Below the pieces are notes generated by a model. That model worked only from the letters and a program-made list of their open reading frames with translations, made no database searches and had not been told where the DNA came from. From Novipirellula galeiformis (GTDB lineage: Bacteria > Planctomycetota > Planctomycetia > Pirellulales > Pirellulaceae): DNA of 64,000 nucleotides. The stretch covers positions 620,001 to 684,000 of the forward strand of contig NZ_SJPT01000002.1 of the NCBI RefSeq assembly GCF_007860095.1, read 5' to 3'. A program made the translations under genes and the position numbers. Position 1 is the stretch's first letter, and each line of letters opens with the position of its first letter. Positions 49,288 through 52,131 of the stretch are shown in pieces.

Positions 49288-50109
49288 ATGATCGAAAGCA
49301 AGGAGCACCGGATCCGCCCGTTCATCAAATGGGCTGGTGGCAAGCGATGGATGATTGACCATCACTCAGACCTATTTGATGTCGACTTTGATCGGCTCGT
49401 TGAACCCTTTCTCGGTAGTGGTGCAGTTTTTTTTGGTCTCGCACCAAAGAGGGCTCTGTTGGCAGATTCAAACCCTCAGCTAATCGAGACTTACATGGCA
49501 CTAAGAGACGACTGGAAGAGCGTAAGACGCAACCTTATTCGCCACCAACAGAACCATTGCACCGACTACTATTATCGCATGCGAAGCTTCACTGGGCGGA
49601 CTCCGGCCACTCGAGCAGCGCGTTTTATTTACTTGAATCGCACTTGCTGGAATGGATTGTATCGAGTTAATCAAAAAGGTCATTTCAATGTGCCGATTGG
49701 CACACGCGACACAGTCCTGTTCGACTCGGATGATTTTGAATCGGTATCCCGTCGGCTAAGCGGCGTGAAGATCGCGACAGCCAACTATTCAGAAACGATG
49801 AAAAAGACGCGCAAAGGCGATTTCGTATTCGTTGATCCTCCATACACGGTTAAGCACAACACAAACGGTTTTATCAAATACAATGAGTCTTTGTTTTCTT
49901 GGGAGGACCAAGAAAAACTTCGCGATGCGGTCTCGGAGGCTGTTTGTCGCGGCGCAAAGGTTTTGGTTACGAACGCGTACCATAAAAGCGTTCTTAAGCT
50001 ATACCGCAACATGGGCACTATTCGTAGATTGAGCCGAATGAGTTCTATTGCCGGTGCCTCTAAGTCTCGAGGACAATTTGACGAAATGGTGGTTCAATGT
50101 TTTGGGTAG
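49288..50109 (+). CDS. Adenine-specific DNA methyltransferase (Dam/D12 class)
   Basis: 273 residues from ATG 49288 with GGAGG just upstream. Motif I is PFIKWAGGKRWMIDHH, followed by DRLVEPFLGSGAVFFGL (SAM binding), ALLADSNPQLIETYMAL, the ARFIYLNRTCWNGLYRVNQK block and GHFNVPIG, and the catalytic motif IV DFVFVDPPYTVKHN (DPPY). These are the features of the D12-class N6-adenine methyltransferases such as Dam and DpnM. The C-terminus has KSRGQFDEMVVQCF. Bases are visibly AT-richer than in flanking genes. Overlaps the next gene by 13 bases; no restriction endonuclease is next to it. Confidence 0.93.
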   Translation: MIESKEHRIRPFIKWAGGKRWMIDHHSDLFDVDFDRLVEPFLGSGAVFFGLAPKRALLADSNPQLIETYMALRDDWKSVRRNLIRHQQNHCTDYYYRMRSFTGRTPATRAARFIYLNRTCWNGLYRVNQKGHFNVPIGTRDTVLFDSDDFESVSRRLSGVKIATANYSETMKKTRKGDFVFVDPPYTVKHNTNGFIKYNESLFSWEDQEKLRDAVSEAVCRGAKVLVTNAYHKSVLKLYRNMGTIRRLSRMSSIAGASKSRGQFDEMVVQCFG

Positions 50110-50936
50110 CTTTCTCCTATACCAAAGGGTTCTTTTGCAACACGATCCCTTTCGTCAATGCTTACAAGTCCTATTCGCCTCAGGCTCATTCCAGGGCAGT
50201 GAAAAAGTTTCTTGTTCTTTGGCTTATCTCGATCCTTCCGTTAGTCATTGCCGCGTCCGTTAAACCCGCTCCGGAACTGAGCAATTCCTCTTGGTTGATT
50301 TTCGTTTCATTTTCCAAGAATCTTACTGATGCTTTTTTCCAAACTCACTTGTTCATCTATGCCGTTTCGTTCATCACTCCTGTCATGTACTTGCTCTACG
50401 AGAACCACGAAACGGTTAGCCGGTGGGTGAGATTAGGGGGGCGTCGTCCAAAGGACTTGCGTTCAACGCCACGTGGCTACGGCAGTATCCTTGGATGGGC
50501 AGTGCCGGTTTTTCTGTTCACGCTCTTGGCCTATGCAATTCAAGAAACGGAGTTTGTAAGCAAGAAGACCTTCATCCAGTTGGTCGCGTCCAAGGGAGCA
50601 CTTCCCGTATATCTTTTTGGACTGGGATGTTGGTATTTTTCAATTGTTGATTCTCTAGGGACACCATTTGATTTCACTGCTCAAGTGAAACAGAACGAGG
50701 AAGCGGTGACAGCGGGTTTGTCTGAACGCGTATCAAAGCGGTCGGCTCCAGAACCAGAACCAGAACCAGAACCAGAACCAGAACCAGAACCAGAACCAGA
50801 ACCAGAACCAGAACCAGAACCAGATTCGGATTCGGATTCGGATTCGGATTCAAGTCACGGAAAAAGCACTGAAGAAGGGAAAGAGAACATCCAAGGCAAC
50901 GACAAAAATCCATCGGAAGGTGCATCCAATGCGTGA
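50097..50936 (+). CDS. Membrane protein with Pro-Glu / Asp-Ser repeat tail
   Basis: 279 residues. About four hydrophobic helices: FLVLWLISILPLVIAASV, LFIYAVSFITPVMYLLY, ILGWAVPVFLFTLLAYAI and LPVYLFGLGCWYFSIVD. After the last helix comes a charged linker and then an acidic tail: roughly a dozen Pro-Glu pairs followed by five Asp-Ser pairs, encoded by pure 6-bp DNA repeats. No family recognised. It starts within the methyltransferase gene and ends within the DGQHR gene, so its product is made in step with both. It could be a membrane anchor or effector with a flexible cytosolic tail; this is inference. Confidence 0.8.
   Translation: MFWVAFSYTKGFFCNTIPFVNAYKSYSPQAHSRAVKKFLVLWLISILPLVIAASVKPAPELSNSSWLIFVSFSKNLTDAFFQTHLFIYAVSFITPVMYLLYENHETVSRWVRLGGRRPKDLRSTPRGYGSILGWAVPVFLFTLLAYAIQETEFVSKKTFIQLVASKGALPVYLFGLGCWYFSIVDSLGTPFDFTAQVKQNEEAVTAGLSERVSKRSAPEPEPEPEPEPEPEPEPEPEPEPEPDSDSDSDSDSSHGKSTEEGKENIQGNDKNPSEGASNA
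50748..50852. repeat. In-gene 6-bp microsatellites (CCAGAA)n and (GATTCG)n
   Basis: About twelve perfect CCAGAA units (50748-50822) directly followed by about five GATTCG units, coding for the Pro-Glu and Asp-Ser tail of the membrane protein. Unit gain or loss keeps the frame. Confidence 0.95.
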
Positions 50937-52131
50937 ATTTGAGCTCGAACTTGCCGCGATCGCTGTCTCACAGCCAATTGGCGATTTCTTTATTACGTCA
51001 ATTCCTGCCAGAGACCTTGTTGAAATTTCTTTTGCCGATGTCCGACGGCTTGTGACAGACGAGAGGGATATCGAACGCTATCTCGGCATCCAGCGTCCAC
51101 TTAGTACACGACGGGTAAAGGAGATTAAAAAGTATATTGAAGGTGGCGATGCCACGTTTCCAACTGCGGTGATTCTCGCCGTTGACGAGAGATGCGTTGA
51201 GTTCGACGAAAAGGCATCAGGATGTGGCCTGCTGAAACTATATGCATTCGATCCGGAAGCTGGTGTTGATGAAGATTCAATTCCATGGGAGCGAATCGCG
51301 AAAGTCCTCGACGGACAACATCGAATCGCGGCATTTATGGATGAGAAGACTCACGAGTACTCATTTGGGGACCGAGAATTTGACATCAACGTTGCAGTCT
51401 TTGTCGGAGCAGATGTGTCGGAACAGGCCAGTATTTTTGCGACTGTAAATTTAGCGCAGACGAAAGTGAACCGCAGTCTTGTCTATGATCTTACCGAACT
51501 CGCTAAAACGCGAAGCCCGTATCGCACTTGCCACAATGTTGCTGTTGCCCTTGATGACGAAGAGTCGAGTCCGCTGTATGAAAGGATAAAACGCCTCGGC
51601 ACAGCAACTCCGGGTAGAAGGCGAGAGCCGCTTACGCAGGCTGCGTTTGTGGAATCATTGGTGGCGTTTATTTCAACTGATCCCGTTGCTGATCGGAATC
51701 GCCAGCTGGCGGGCAAAAAGCTGCGTAGAGCAAGTGTGGGTGAACTAGCGGTCTGTCCATTTCGGAACATGTATATTGACAAGGCTGACGTCGATATCTC
51801 TGAGATCTTGTTTAACTATTTCGACGCGGTTCGTCAGAAATGGCCAAGATCGTGGATTAATCTCGAAACTTCTGGGAATTTGCTACCGAAGTCCAATGCA
51901 TTTAAGGCGCTTATGAAGTTTCTTAGGGAGGACGTTTATCCTGATATCGTTGGAAGCGACTTTGGATTGATTCCGTCCACGCGTCAGTTCTATAAGTACT
52001 TCAAGGATTTGGACTTCCGGGACTCAGACTTTACGACAAAGAATTTTTCGCCAGGTAATAGTGGTCAGGCCATGTTCCTGAAGATGTTGCGTGGAGAGGT
52101 GACGAGAGAAGATTTGCTTGAACTTGATTAG
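50929..52131 (+). CDS. DGQHR-domain protein (DndB/DpdB-like)
   Basis: 400 residues from ATG 50929, preceded by GGAAGG; a GTG three codons earlier is possible. The defining motif is AKVLDGQHRIAAF (about residue 126), with flanking family features: the N-terminal RYLGIQRPLSTRRVKEIKKY segment, FPTAVILAVDE, INVAVFVGADVSEQASIFAT and VNLAQTKVNRSLVYDL. DGQHR proteins occur in DNA phosphorothioation (DndB regulator) and 7-deazaguanine DNA modification (DpdB) islands and as orphans in mobile DNA. Here it ends an operon with a DNA methyltransferase and a membrane protein. It may regulate or license the modification; direct role unknown. Confidence 0.88.
   Translation: MREFELELAAIAVSQPIGDFFITSIPARDLVEISFADVRRLVTDERDIERYLGIQRPLSTRRVKEIKKYIEGGDATFPTAVILAVDERCVEFDEKASGCGLLKLYAFDPEAGVDEDSIPWERIAKVLDGQHRIAAFMDEKTHEYSFGDREFDINVAVFVGADVSEQASIFATVNLAQTKVNRSLVYDLTELAKTRSPYRTCHNVAVALDDEESSPLYERIKRLGTATPGRRREPLTQAAFVESLVAFISTDPVADRNRQLAGKKLRRASVGELAVCPFRNMYIDKADVDISEILFNYFDAVRQKWPRSWINLETSGNLLPKSNAFKALMKFLREDVYPDIVGSDFGLIPSTRQFYKYFKDLDFRDSDFTTKNFSPGNSGQAMFLKMLRGEVTREDLLELD

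Follow-up and report, generated by a model that had tools for sequence, protein, structure and literature searches.

What might an adenine DNA methyltransferase (MTase), a membrane protein and a DGQHR protein do together in one operon? The question is raised by positions 49288-52131 of the window, by which we mean the whole 64,000-nucleotide stretch of Novipirellula galeiformis DNA that was analysed. Three ORFs are open at those coordinates, and both profile searches and structure modelling bore out the original prediction that they encode an adenine methyltransferase, a four-helix membrane protein and a DGQHR protein. The MTase gene (49288..50109, forward strand) encodes a Dam-family (D12, DpnII-M/EcoDam-like) adenine-N6 DNA methyltransferase of 273 aa, as judged from its profile match and DPPY motif. 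The membrane protein gene (50097..50936, forward strand) encodes 279 aa and is our proposed effector, given its predicted helices and the position that it keeps in relatives, and the DGQHR (DndB-like) gene (50929..52131, forward strand) encodes 400 aa and is the proposed reader of the methyl mark, on the grounds of profile, motif and predicted fold. The ORF coordinates agree with the predicted overlaps of 13 bases between the MTase and membrane ORFs (50097-50109) and of 8 bases between the membrane and DGQHR ORFs (50929-50936 if translation begins at the ATG at 50929; a start at the GTG at 50920 lengthens the overlap), and the overlapping genes are probably co-translated. The AT-rich composition and the neighbouring transposase unit noted earlier were also found: G+C is 0.47-0.49 in the 1-kb intervals of 49001-52000 compared to 0.50-0.63 in every other 1-kb interval of the stretch, and the right neighbour (52468-53457, reverse strand) is an IS200/Y1-type transposase (PF01797). 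A genome of the same genus is 90% identical over the left flank as far as 48725, where the match ends, and has the block 56148-57534 of the right flank on a different contig, which places the operon at a synteny break. In profile searches neither partner gene of the MTase matched an endonuclease family, and the genome of the window gave no match to DndC (TIGR03183) at E≤0.001.

The window MTase scored 220.7 bits against the Dam profile TIGR00571 (cut-off 114.85), its catalytic DPPY (residues 183-186) is invariant in seven aligned homologues, and its nearest solved structure is the DpnII methylase (2dpm, E 9e-46). As read off an alignment to EcoDam, K9, N120, L122, R124 and P134 are retained and Y138 is changed, all six being what we take to be the GATC-contacting residues of EcoDam; a literature search on these contact residues found nothing. 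The DGQHR protein scored 229.4 bits against the DGQHR profile TIGR03187 (cut-off 58.85), and its DGQHR motif (residues 128-132) is present in 30/30 aligned rows; L024, L025, L026, L028, L030, L031 and L033 were excluded from the DGQHR structure alignment. It falls below the equivalog cut-offs for DGQHR_dnd_1 (TIGR04172; 181.8 bits against 450), DpdB (NF041060; 76.2 against 300) and DndB (29.3 against 328). Comparison of its predicted model by VIA-align gave middling Z-scores to PadC (8.2), Noc (7.4), ParB (7.4), sulfiredoxin (5.0), BrxU (3.8) and SspE (3.7), which suggest a ParB/sulfiredoxin-like N-terminal domain; a Foldseek search with the model returned no match at E≤0.001 and a PDB sequence search with the DGQHR profile returned nothing at E≤1. 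At the same E≤1 the protein had no Pfam match to an HNH (DUF1524) nuclease and no PADLOC match to KwaB. By analogy, we infer that the DGQHR protein may be a reader of methylation state.

The membrane protein consists of a core of ~208 aa followed by an (EP)n/(DS)n acidic tail, confirmed as (EP)12 then (DS)5 (residues 219-252, encoded by a low-complexity repeat at 50751..50852, forward strand). The flexible acidic tail to which the original prediction drew attention is present in the window copy but has no counterpart repeat in the other membrane proteins aligned with it (0/32), and is peculiar to the window copy. The predicted model of the protein alone displays four long hydrophobic helices (28-55, 84-112, 128-150 and 159-188), and the membrane gene holds the middle position in the uncut close relatives as well; membrane segments in relatives were called by a Kyte-Doolittle window of 19 rather than a dedicated predictor, and L024, L025 and L026 were excluded from the membrane protein structure alignment. 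Profile matches of the window protein fall in the low-complexity tail, except MreD at E 0.77. When its model was compared with the PDB, Foldseek gave no match at E≤0.001 and VIA-align returned apparently generic helical bundles (best Z 8.2). No effector domain was recognised in the membrane proteins: a SLATT-type profile matched 2/30 weakly (best E 0.0022), five Pfam families each matched a single protein of the set, and PADLOC found no KwaA among the 30 at E≤0.01. Over 30 triplets, median identities were 53% for the MTase, 47% for the DGQHR protein and 23% for the membrane protein, by which measure the middle gene is the fastest evolving of the three. A single-sequence search of 392 genomes with the membrane protein was near-empty because the protein evolves too fast, returning itself and one weak match (E 6.5e-4), a 485-aa ORF that is apparently unrelated.

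The original prediction had named repeated co-occurrence in unrelated genomes as the observation that would support a module, and the cellular, viral and MTase-first counts all strongly favour it. The full triplet was present in 6/6 cellular relatives whose loci are uncut, members of Pseudomonadota and Bacteroidota (one of the seven cellular loci, L003, is cut by a contig edge and was omitted) and in 10/10 close viral loci (of 12; L020 and L021, at 26-29% identity, were omitted from the close set). The Pseudomonadota with the triplet include Alpha- and Betaproteobacteria, and a Roseateles plasmid has it too; among the carriers of the module are several plasmids, contigs that look like prophages and one repeat array. 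In the best 80 of 130 loci of the MTase-first search, a DGQHR neighbour accompanied 37/44 MTases scoring at least 280 bits and 1/36 lower-scoring loci, counts in which near-duplicates (L037/L038, L074/L075) and 10 contigs found by both viral scans were kept, and in which the close MTases are partly a selected set since the scan profiles were seeded on DGQHR-chosen loci. Among these best 80, the 37 DGQHR neighbours comprised 26 short, 5 long and 6 fused forms, and a membrane gene lay directly upstream in 25 of the 26 short-DGQHR loci, the remaining one being cut by a contig end. Among the close MTases at uncut loci, L065 lacks a recognisable partner, and distant DGQHR genes at L020, L021, L023, L029 and L133 stand without a membrane gene.

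Wider genome scans returned few loci. The 369 cellular genomes of one class held six MTases scoring at least 280 bits: the seed genome itself (membrane type), two fused, two of HerA type and one with a cut downstream gene that matches a fused gene (37% over 161 aa). Three further MTases at 223-230 bits were all without DGQHR, and no new membrane-type locus was found in this class beyond the seed. Apart from the genome of the window itself, a scan of 391 genomes from the phylum gave one weak match (111 bits); 198 genomes of the family gave none; and 398 genomes of an order gave, besides the seed, one weak match (160 bits). A phage collection of 50,697 records contained no DGQHR match and no MTase match at 1e-60, unlike the IMG/VR contigs, which hold many matches. 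Overall, the three genes form a conserved unit that spans several phyla and is found in prophages, on a plasmid and in a repeat array.

The partners of the MTase vary, and include the membrane protein with DGQHR, DGQHR with a ~445-aa protein, a PD-(D/E)xK-like–DGQHR–HEPN-like fusion, and HerA pairs. On the MTase tree, in which the cut loci L040 and L053 bear an assumed partner label, partner type changes 14 times, compared to a minimum possible of 6 and a shuffled mean of 23.0. The MTase stays constant while the partner cassette is exchanged: the MTases of L011 and L017 are 94% identical, whereas their membrane proteins share 24% and their DGQHR proteins 46% identity, and in each prophage the membrane–DGQHR pair lies at the corresponding site, with an S24-type repressor on one side and the MTase on the other. 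Five viral loci have the pair in convergent orientation to the MTase and following a repressor gene. In the fused partners, QxDV...ECK (PD-(D/E)xK-like) is invariant in 7/7 and NxLR-x4-H (HEPN-like) is present in 6/7, on either side of DGQHR, with weak profile support for these assignments. The HEPN-like label of the ~445-aa protein and of the fused C-terminal parts, and the NurA-like label of HerA's partner, are our own reading of motifs, and none of the three matched a NurA or HEPN family; the fused C-terminus weakly matches the PADLOC candidate PDC-M34B (E 6e-11). Plasmid pZZM405 of Zymomonas mobilis ZM4 carries an MTase 51% identical to that of the window with a DGQHR gene close by, but differs in its partner, a ~441-aa protein without predicted membrane segments, in its longer DGQHR (~497 aa) and in its gene order (DGQHR, partner, MTase). 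Phosphorothioation-type DGQHR genes are likewise preceded by a membrane gene, in 9/9 loci inspected. Dam-type and Dnd-type membrane partners share position and predicted topology; hhalign of the Dam-type against one Dnd-type partner (L030) gave a probability of 9%, at which homology is not shown. The membrane gene and Dnd-type DGQHR pair occurs in 109/5426 complete E. coli genomes at a coverage of at least 80%, and in the E. coli copy inspected the DGQHR part is broken up into two ORFs.

We propose that the operon is a methylation-licensed self/non-self module with a membrane effector and a DGQHR reader, a reading whose chances we judge to be about even. The MTase would place N6-methyladenine on recognition sites of the resident genome, and the DGQHR protein, with its predicted ParB/Srx-like domain as in SspE and DndI, would bind or scan DNA and tell marked from unmarked sites. 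On unmarked DNA, whether invading or newly unprotected, it would switch the four-helix membrane protein, which would then damage or depolarise the inner membrane so that growth or phage production stops; the membrane protein would occupy the place of the nuclease-like part of the sister systems. A membrane effector under the control of methylation or DGQHR is the best-supported reading because the sisters carry a nuclease-like domain in that place and because there are precedents for a ParB fold that reads DNA modification: in SspE and DndI a ParB-superfamily (DUF262) domain is described as reading the DNA mark and sparing self DNA (PMC11662687). The defence logic of the original prediction thus gains co-occurrence, the sister domains and these readers in its favour but keeps its conditional standing, since the defence role rests on association, and the membrane mechanism is likewise put forward as a proposal. 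What counts against the specificity side of our explanation is the methylome of ZM4, the strain with the recorded pZZM405: as published (PMC8432527) it has CAGN4CTG, GAAGN7TCC and GANTC and no GATC, from a stock that may not have held the plasmid. Also against the explanation are the want of a Foldseek match for either protein and of a recognised effector domain in the membrane proteins, the MTase of L065, the distant DGQHR genes that stand without a membrane gene, and the scan of one class in which the seed was the sole membrane-type locus. More tentatively, and we think with rather less than an even chance, the membrane effector and ParB-fold DGQHR reader could be a general two-gene cassette compatible with several kinds of DNA marking (by Dam-type adenine methylation, by type II restriction-modification and by phosphorothioation), the missing self mark leading to membrane damage and not to nuclease action.

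The same parts could instead block an invader without suicide, with a membrane platform that detects DNA injection or is stationed where it occurs, a DGQHR protein that binds unmethylated incoming DNA and stops its replication or transcription while the cell survives, and an MTase that shields the chromosome. Kiwa, which is described as consisting of membrane-embedded KwaA and a DNA-binding KwaB that does not cleave DNA (PMC12904381), is a precedent for this, and the window likewise pairs a small membrane protein with a putative DNA reader in an operon without a nuclease. We nevertheless consider such a block unlikely, if the most serious rival, as KwaA and KwaB were not matched in the searches described above and the nuclease-like and HEPN-like parts of sister versions point to a destructive effector. 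Kiwa, to our knowledge, also has no methylase. Alternatively, the same chemistry could mainly serve to retain its carrier: once the element is lost the mark would be diluted and the membrane protein would kill the daughter cell, analogous post-loss killing having been proposed for selfish restriction-modification systems. The mobile carriers and the sporadic presence, with weak or no matches in the phylum, family and order scans, are in keeping with addiction, but an MTase that stays constant while the effector cassettes next to it are exchanged is more readily explained by selection from a variety of invaders, and we regard addiction as the main role as improbable; addiction and defence are not mutually exclusive.

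A purely regulatory set, in which DGQHR controls the MTase level as a DndB-like repressor, the membrane protein serves for tethering or sensing and methylation regulates genes with no effector involved, would suit the overlapping, probably co-translated genes, and DndB is described as a repressor of the dnd operon (PMC4507180). It is hard to reconcile with five viral loci in which the pair follows a repressor gene and runs convergent to the MTase, with a pair that changes while the MTase stays (L011 and L017), with nuclease-like fused sisters and with a DndB equivalog score of 29.3 bits where 328 are needed, and we think it very improbable. The window copy, at a synteny break beside a transposase, might by itself suggest chance neighbours at a mobile-element junction, but the triplet recurs in Bacteroidota, in Alpha- and Betaproteobacteria, on prophage-like contigs and on a plasmid, which leaves this next to no probability, and the co-occurrence counts rule it out.

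If the methylation-licensed membrane effector reading is true, epigenetic self-recognition would be linked to membrane-acting abortive infection and a job would be found for the DGQHR partners of Dnd loci. The systems known to us that tell self DNA by chemical marks all act on DNA through nucleases, translocases or binding proteins. Natural experiments on the contributions of mark and reader are at hand in the prophage site where the pair has been swapped next to a near-identical MTase. The operon may represent an undescribed immune-type system that uses a membrane protein, and not an enzyme that cuts DNA, as its weapon; the literature searched held no published description of the module, as the original prediction had supposed.

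Compared with known systems, the operon recalls SspABCD-SspE and IscS-DndBCDE-DndI, in which one part makes the DNA mark and a ParB-superfamily domain reads it, through the predicted ParB/Srx-like domain of its DGQHR protein (with a weak SspE alignment, Z 3.7), but its mark is presumably N6-methyladenine and not sulphur, and a membrane protein stands in the stead of the attached HNH nuclease. It shares its domain with the DGQHR/DndB family (TIGR03187, PF14072), whose phosphorothioation-type members also follow a membrane gene; unlike the named DGQHR equivalogs, the window protein lies under their cut-offs and is tied to a Dam-type MTase. The pairing of a small membrane protein with a putative DNA reader recalls Kiwa, where the membrane protein is in the inner membrane and its DNA-binding partner is cytosolic (PMC12904381), and from which the window proteins differ in matching neither the KwaA nor the KwaB profile. 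As in DpnII/BglII type II restriction-modification, the Dam-family MTase is nearest to the DpnII methylase; such systems differ in their endonuclease gene, which the window operon lacks. On an Acinetobacter plasmid a D12 methylase, a membrane protein and DGQHR are found together with a BglII/BstYI-type endonuclease gene, which is separated from the methylase by a small HTH gene on the opposite strand.

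Reading of the ORFs in the window bore out the original prediction of three open, overlapping, co-directional genes: a Dam-family adenine methyltransferase (MTase; 49288-50109, + strand, TIGR00571), a membrane protein with hydrophobic helices (50097-50936, +) and a DGQHR protein (50929-52131, +, TIGR03187). The MTase scores 220.7 bits against TIGR00571 (cut-off 114.85), has the DpnII methylase as its closest solved structure and is a type II or orphan enzyme by PADLOC profiles; its residues aligned to those of EcoDam that we take to be GATC contacts are mostly kept. The DGQHR protein scores 229.4 against TIGR03187 (cut-off 58.85) and falls far short of the thresholds for its named relatives, DGQHR_dnd_1, DpdB and DndB; PADLOC profiles liken it to DpdB and DndB, and a profile search found no DndC in the window's own genome. 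The membrane protein matched no PADLOC profile, and profile searches with its core found no family.

The operon had also been described as AT-rich unlike its neighbours, and its composition agrees: G+C is 0.47-0.49 in 1-kb windows across 49001-52000 and 0.50-0.63 elsewhere. Since the left flank is 90% identical in a same-genus genome as far as 48725, with no match beyond, and the right-flank block is located on another contig of that genome, the operon is placed by sequence comparison at a rearrangement or insertion. Neither the other two genomes of this genus nor the remainder of 199 family genomes gave a DGQHR relative at E<=1e-20. Nearby, repeats (...GCTTCGCGGGGTCAGGCTAGGTTTTCGGTTT...) at 52340-52480 and 53520-53600 flank a Y1/IS200-like transposase gene (52468-53457) with an additional weak DnaA-C-like match, an arrangement resembling REP-associated transposase units, and ~46200-46480 is a minisatellite reading (SHFLT/CHFLT)n in one frame and (EVRKW/EVKKW)n on the opposite strand.

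Repeated co-occurrence in unrelated genomes, which the original prediction had named as support for a module, was found in cellular and viral sequences alike. A scan of 84,980 species genomes (genome_contigs) with single-sequence patterns, which reach close relatives only, returned seven relatives at 41-66% identity, from a Planctomycetaceae MAG, Gallionella, a Bacteroidota MAG, Rubrivivax, Rugamonas, Collimonas and an alphaproteobacterial MAG. One locus (L003) was left out of the count because its contig ends just upstream; the order MTase, membrane protein, DGQHR is kept in 6/6 of the others. A scan of viral contigs gave 12 loci. In each of the 10 close loci a membrane gene immediately precedes DGQHR and a Dam-type MTase adjoins the pair, co-directional in five and convergent in five; the convergent five also have a Peptidase-S24/HTH repressor gene upstream. 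At 26-29% identity, the two distant loci have neither the upstream membrane gene nor the MTase. The triplet is also present on a Roseateles plasmid (L024), and median identities across 30 triplets are 53% for the MTase, 47% for DGQHR and 23% for the membrane protein. By this recurrence, the triplet is a conserved module. In Rubrivivax sp. A210 (L006) it lies inside an array of alike ~465-base ORFs (1332-1796, 4837-5301, 7200-7667, 7735-8199 and 11177-11641) alternating with small genes, which recalls a sedentary integron, and on one viral contig (L049, ~4830-6010) DGQHR is divided into two ORFs.

To lessen selection by DGQHR, viral contigs were also searched with an MTase alignment, and the best 80 of 130 relatives were analysed. 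Within these 80, MTase scores form two groups, 44 at 280 bits or above and 36 lower, and a DGQHR gene lies within 2 kb of 37/44 and 1/36, respectively. The 37 loci comprise 26 with a short DGQHR (adjoined by a membrane gene in 25, the remaining one being cut), five with a ~500-aa DGQHR and a 425-449-aa partner, and six with a fused 775-812-aa protein. The seven high-scoring MTases of this set that lack DGQHR are three beside a HerA-type ATPase and ~445-aa protein (HerA profiles match the ATPases at E 2e-19 or better), one beside a metallophosphoesterase (PF00149) and a second gene without PADLOC match, two whose contigs break off beside the MTase, and one (L065) whose neighbourhood shows no recognisable partner. 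Across 369 cellular genomes of one class, six MTases score at least 280 bits: that of the seed genome (membrane plus DGQHR), two of fused type, one with a cut downstream gene that matches the nuclease-like part of a fused protein at 37% identity across 161 aa, and two of HerA type; this sample thus holds no new membrane-type locus beyond the seed genome. Three further MTases in it, at 223-230 bits, have no DGQHR neighbour. Because the search profiles were seeded on module loci, the counts establish a sharp association inside one MTase clade and do not represent Dam enzymes at large. In L035, L047, L072, L148 and L149, which lack DGQHR, MTases of this clade are paired with a HerA-type ATPase and a ~434-455-aa ORF that we read as NurA-like.

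The partners of the MTase are exchangeable. The fused proteins carry a PD-(D/E)xK-like region, a DGQHR domain and a HEPN-like pattern in that order: QxDV...ECK, the pattern of PD-(D/E)xK nucleases, is invariant in 7/7, and a C-terminal NxLR-x4-H, as in HEPN domains, occurs in 6/7; profile searches with these parts gave weak matches. On a tree of 56 MTases, whose bootstrap had not settled and which includes two cut loci with assumed partner labels, accounting for the partner types takes 14 changes, against a possible minimum of 6 and a mean of 23.0 after shuffling; its six outgroup rows separate at 100/100. Two related prophage-like contigs (L011 and L017) share 94% identity in the MTase, 24% in the membrane protein and 46% in DGQHR, and a third (L051), whose MTase groups with theirs, holds a long DGQHR and 447-aa protein in the same place, likewise behind an S24-type repressor. 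These contigs show partner swaps at one place, membrane protein and DGQHR differing together beside a retained MTase. Mantel Spearman correlations of pairwise identities (30 triplets) are 0.50 for MTase-DGQHR, 0.37 for membrane-DGQHR and 0.28 for MTase-membrane, with 0/499 permutations as high; most simply, the MTase and its reader would communicate through the DNA mark.

In a plasmid collection, 19 of 26 matching records were inspected, and a membrane gene directly precedes DGQHR in 15. This holds for the Roseateles triplet (L024); for 9/9 phosphorothioation-annotated or dnd-adjacent copies (L028, L030, L031, L127-L132), among them L130, with AAA and FtsK-type neighbours only; for four clusters with a BglII/BstYI-type endonuclease gene (L025, L026, and L135 and L136, which resemble L025 and were judged by their annotation only); and for the 7.9-kb Lactiplantibacillus plasmid pCD033 (L027, 3127-5079), whose gene table lists no MTase and where the protein encoded before DGQHR has 273 aa and two hydrophobic segments, both C-terminal. 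It is absent from a NotI-type system (L029), the long DGQHR type of Zymomonas (L126) and L133, and L134, whose only candidate is a short gene that has two hydrophobic segments, was not counted. In one of two weak genome matches (L033), DGQHR follows a 3-segment membrane gene; the other (L023), from a different Planctomycetota genome, has none, and its distant DGQHR (2141-3172) adjoins a protein weakly matching the PADLOC candidate PDC-M38A (E 4.9e-8). The distant DGQHR genes of L020, L021 and L029 have no membrane partner; behind each comes a ~280-326-aa protein that bears a KxYYxxF pattern and looks HEPN-like, and the L029 protein, the one examined, had no Pfam match. The Zymomonas mobilis plasmid pZZM405 (L126, 3130-6792), from a well-studied industrial bacterium, bears a sister version made up of DGQHR, a 441-aa protein and a Dam-type MTase, and downstream of it lies a DUF4433 and macro-domain pair. 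In contrast to the mostly kept GATC-contact residues of the window's MTase, the methylome of Z. mobilis ZM4 (PMC8432527) has no GATC methylation in the accessible part of its report, although pZZM405, the plasmid recorded for ZM4, may be missing from that stock.

Where compared, Dam-type and Dnd-type membrane proteins showed no sequence similarity, so that only position and topology are common to them. The Dnd-linked membrane-DGQHR pair occurs in 109/5426 E. coli genomes at >=80% coverage. In E. coli H240 (L128) its DGQHR reads as two ORFs in a split frame, and may be a broken gene or a two-part protein; this copy is 100% identical over the query to 12 E. coli genomes among the matches listed (e.g. 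NC_011748.1, 4957121-4958851). The name 'accessory gene regulator B family' falls under the same match in those genomes and probably belongs to the membrane gene.

The DGQHR domain is related to DUF262 and the ParB/Srx fold in the accessible text of PMC4619093. Our DGQHR model (pLDDT 83.9, pTM 0.78) had no Foldseek match at E<=0.001; VIA-align likens the fold of residues ~10-180, at middling Z values, to ParB/Srx-like proteins: 8.2 for ParB-like PadC (99 residues, 3.2 A), 7.4 for Noc and ParB, 5.0 for sulfiredoxin, 3.8 for BrxU and 3.7 for SspE. According to the available portion of PMC11662687, a ParB-superfamily domain in SspE and DndI reads DNA modification and so spares self DNA, and DndI harms cells without modification and nicks unmodified DNA; by analogy, the DGQHR protein would be a reader of the adenine mark. 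In the model of the membrane core (pLDDT 85.1, pTM 0.76), four long hydrophobic helices are accompanied by shorter ones at both ends, and Foldseek and VIA-align found no structural relative. Charge counts (N-terminus +4/-0, loop 1 +2/-2, loop 2 +5/-1, loop 3 +2/-1) suggest an N-in, C-in topology, in which the acidic tail would lie in the cytoplasm. Because sister versions carry a nuclease-like or HEPN-like part in its place, the membrane protein would be the effector, damaging the membrane when unmarked DNA is met. The main rival to this reading is a Kiwa-like platform (PMC12904381).

No description of the MTase-membrane-DGQHR module was found in titles, abstracts and passages of the open literature on DGQHR, DndB and methylase-membrane systems, subscription papers and preprints lying outside this scope. 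We class the module among the modification-based self/non-self systems, as a new variant, and there is a fair chance that its membrane-effector logic is new in kind.
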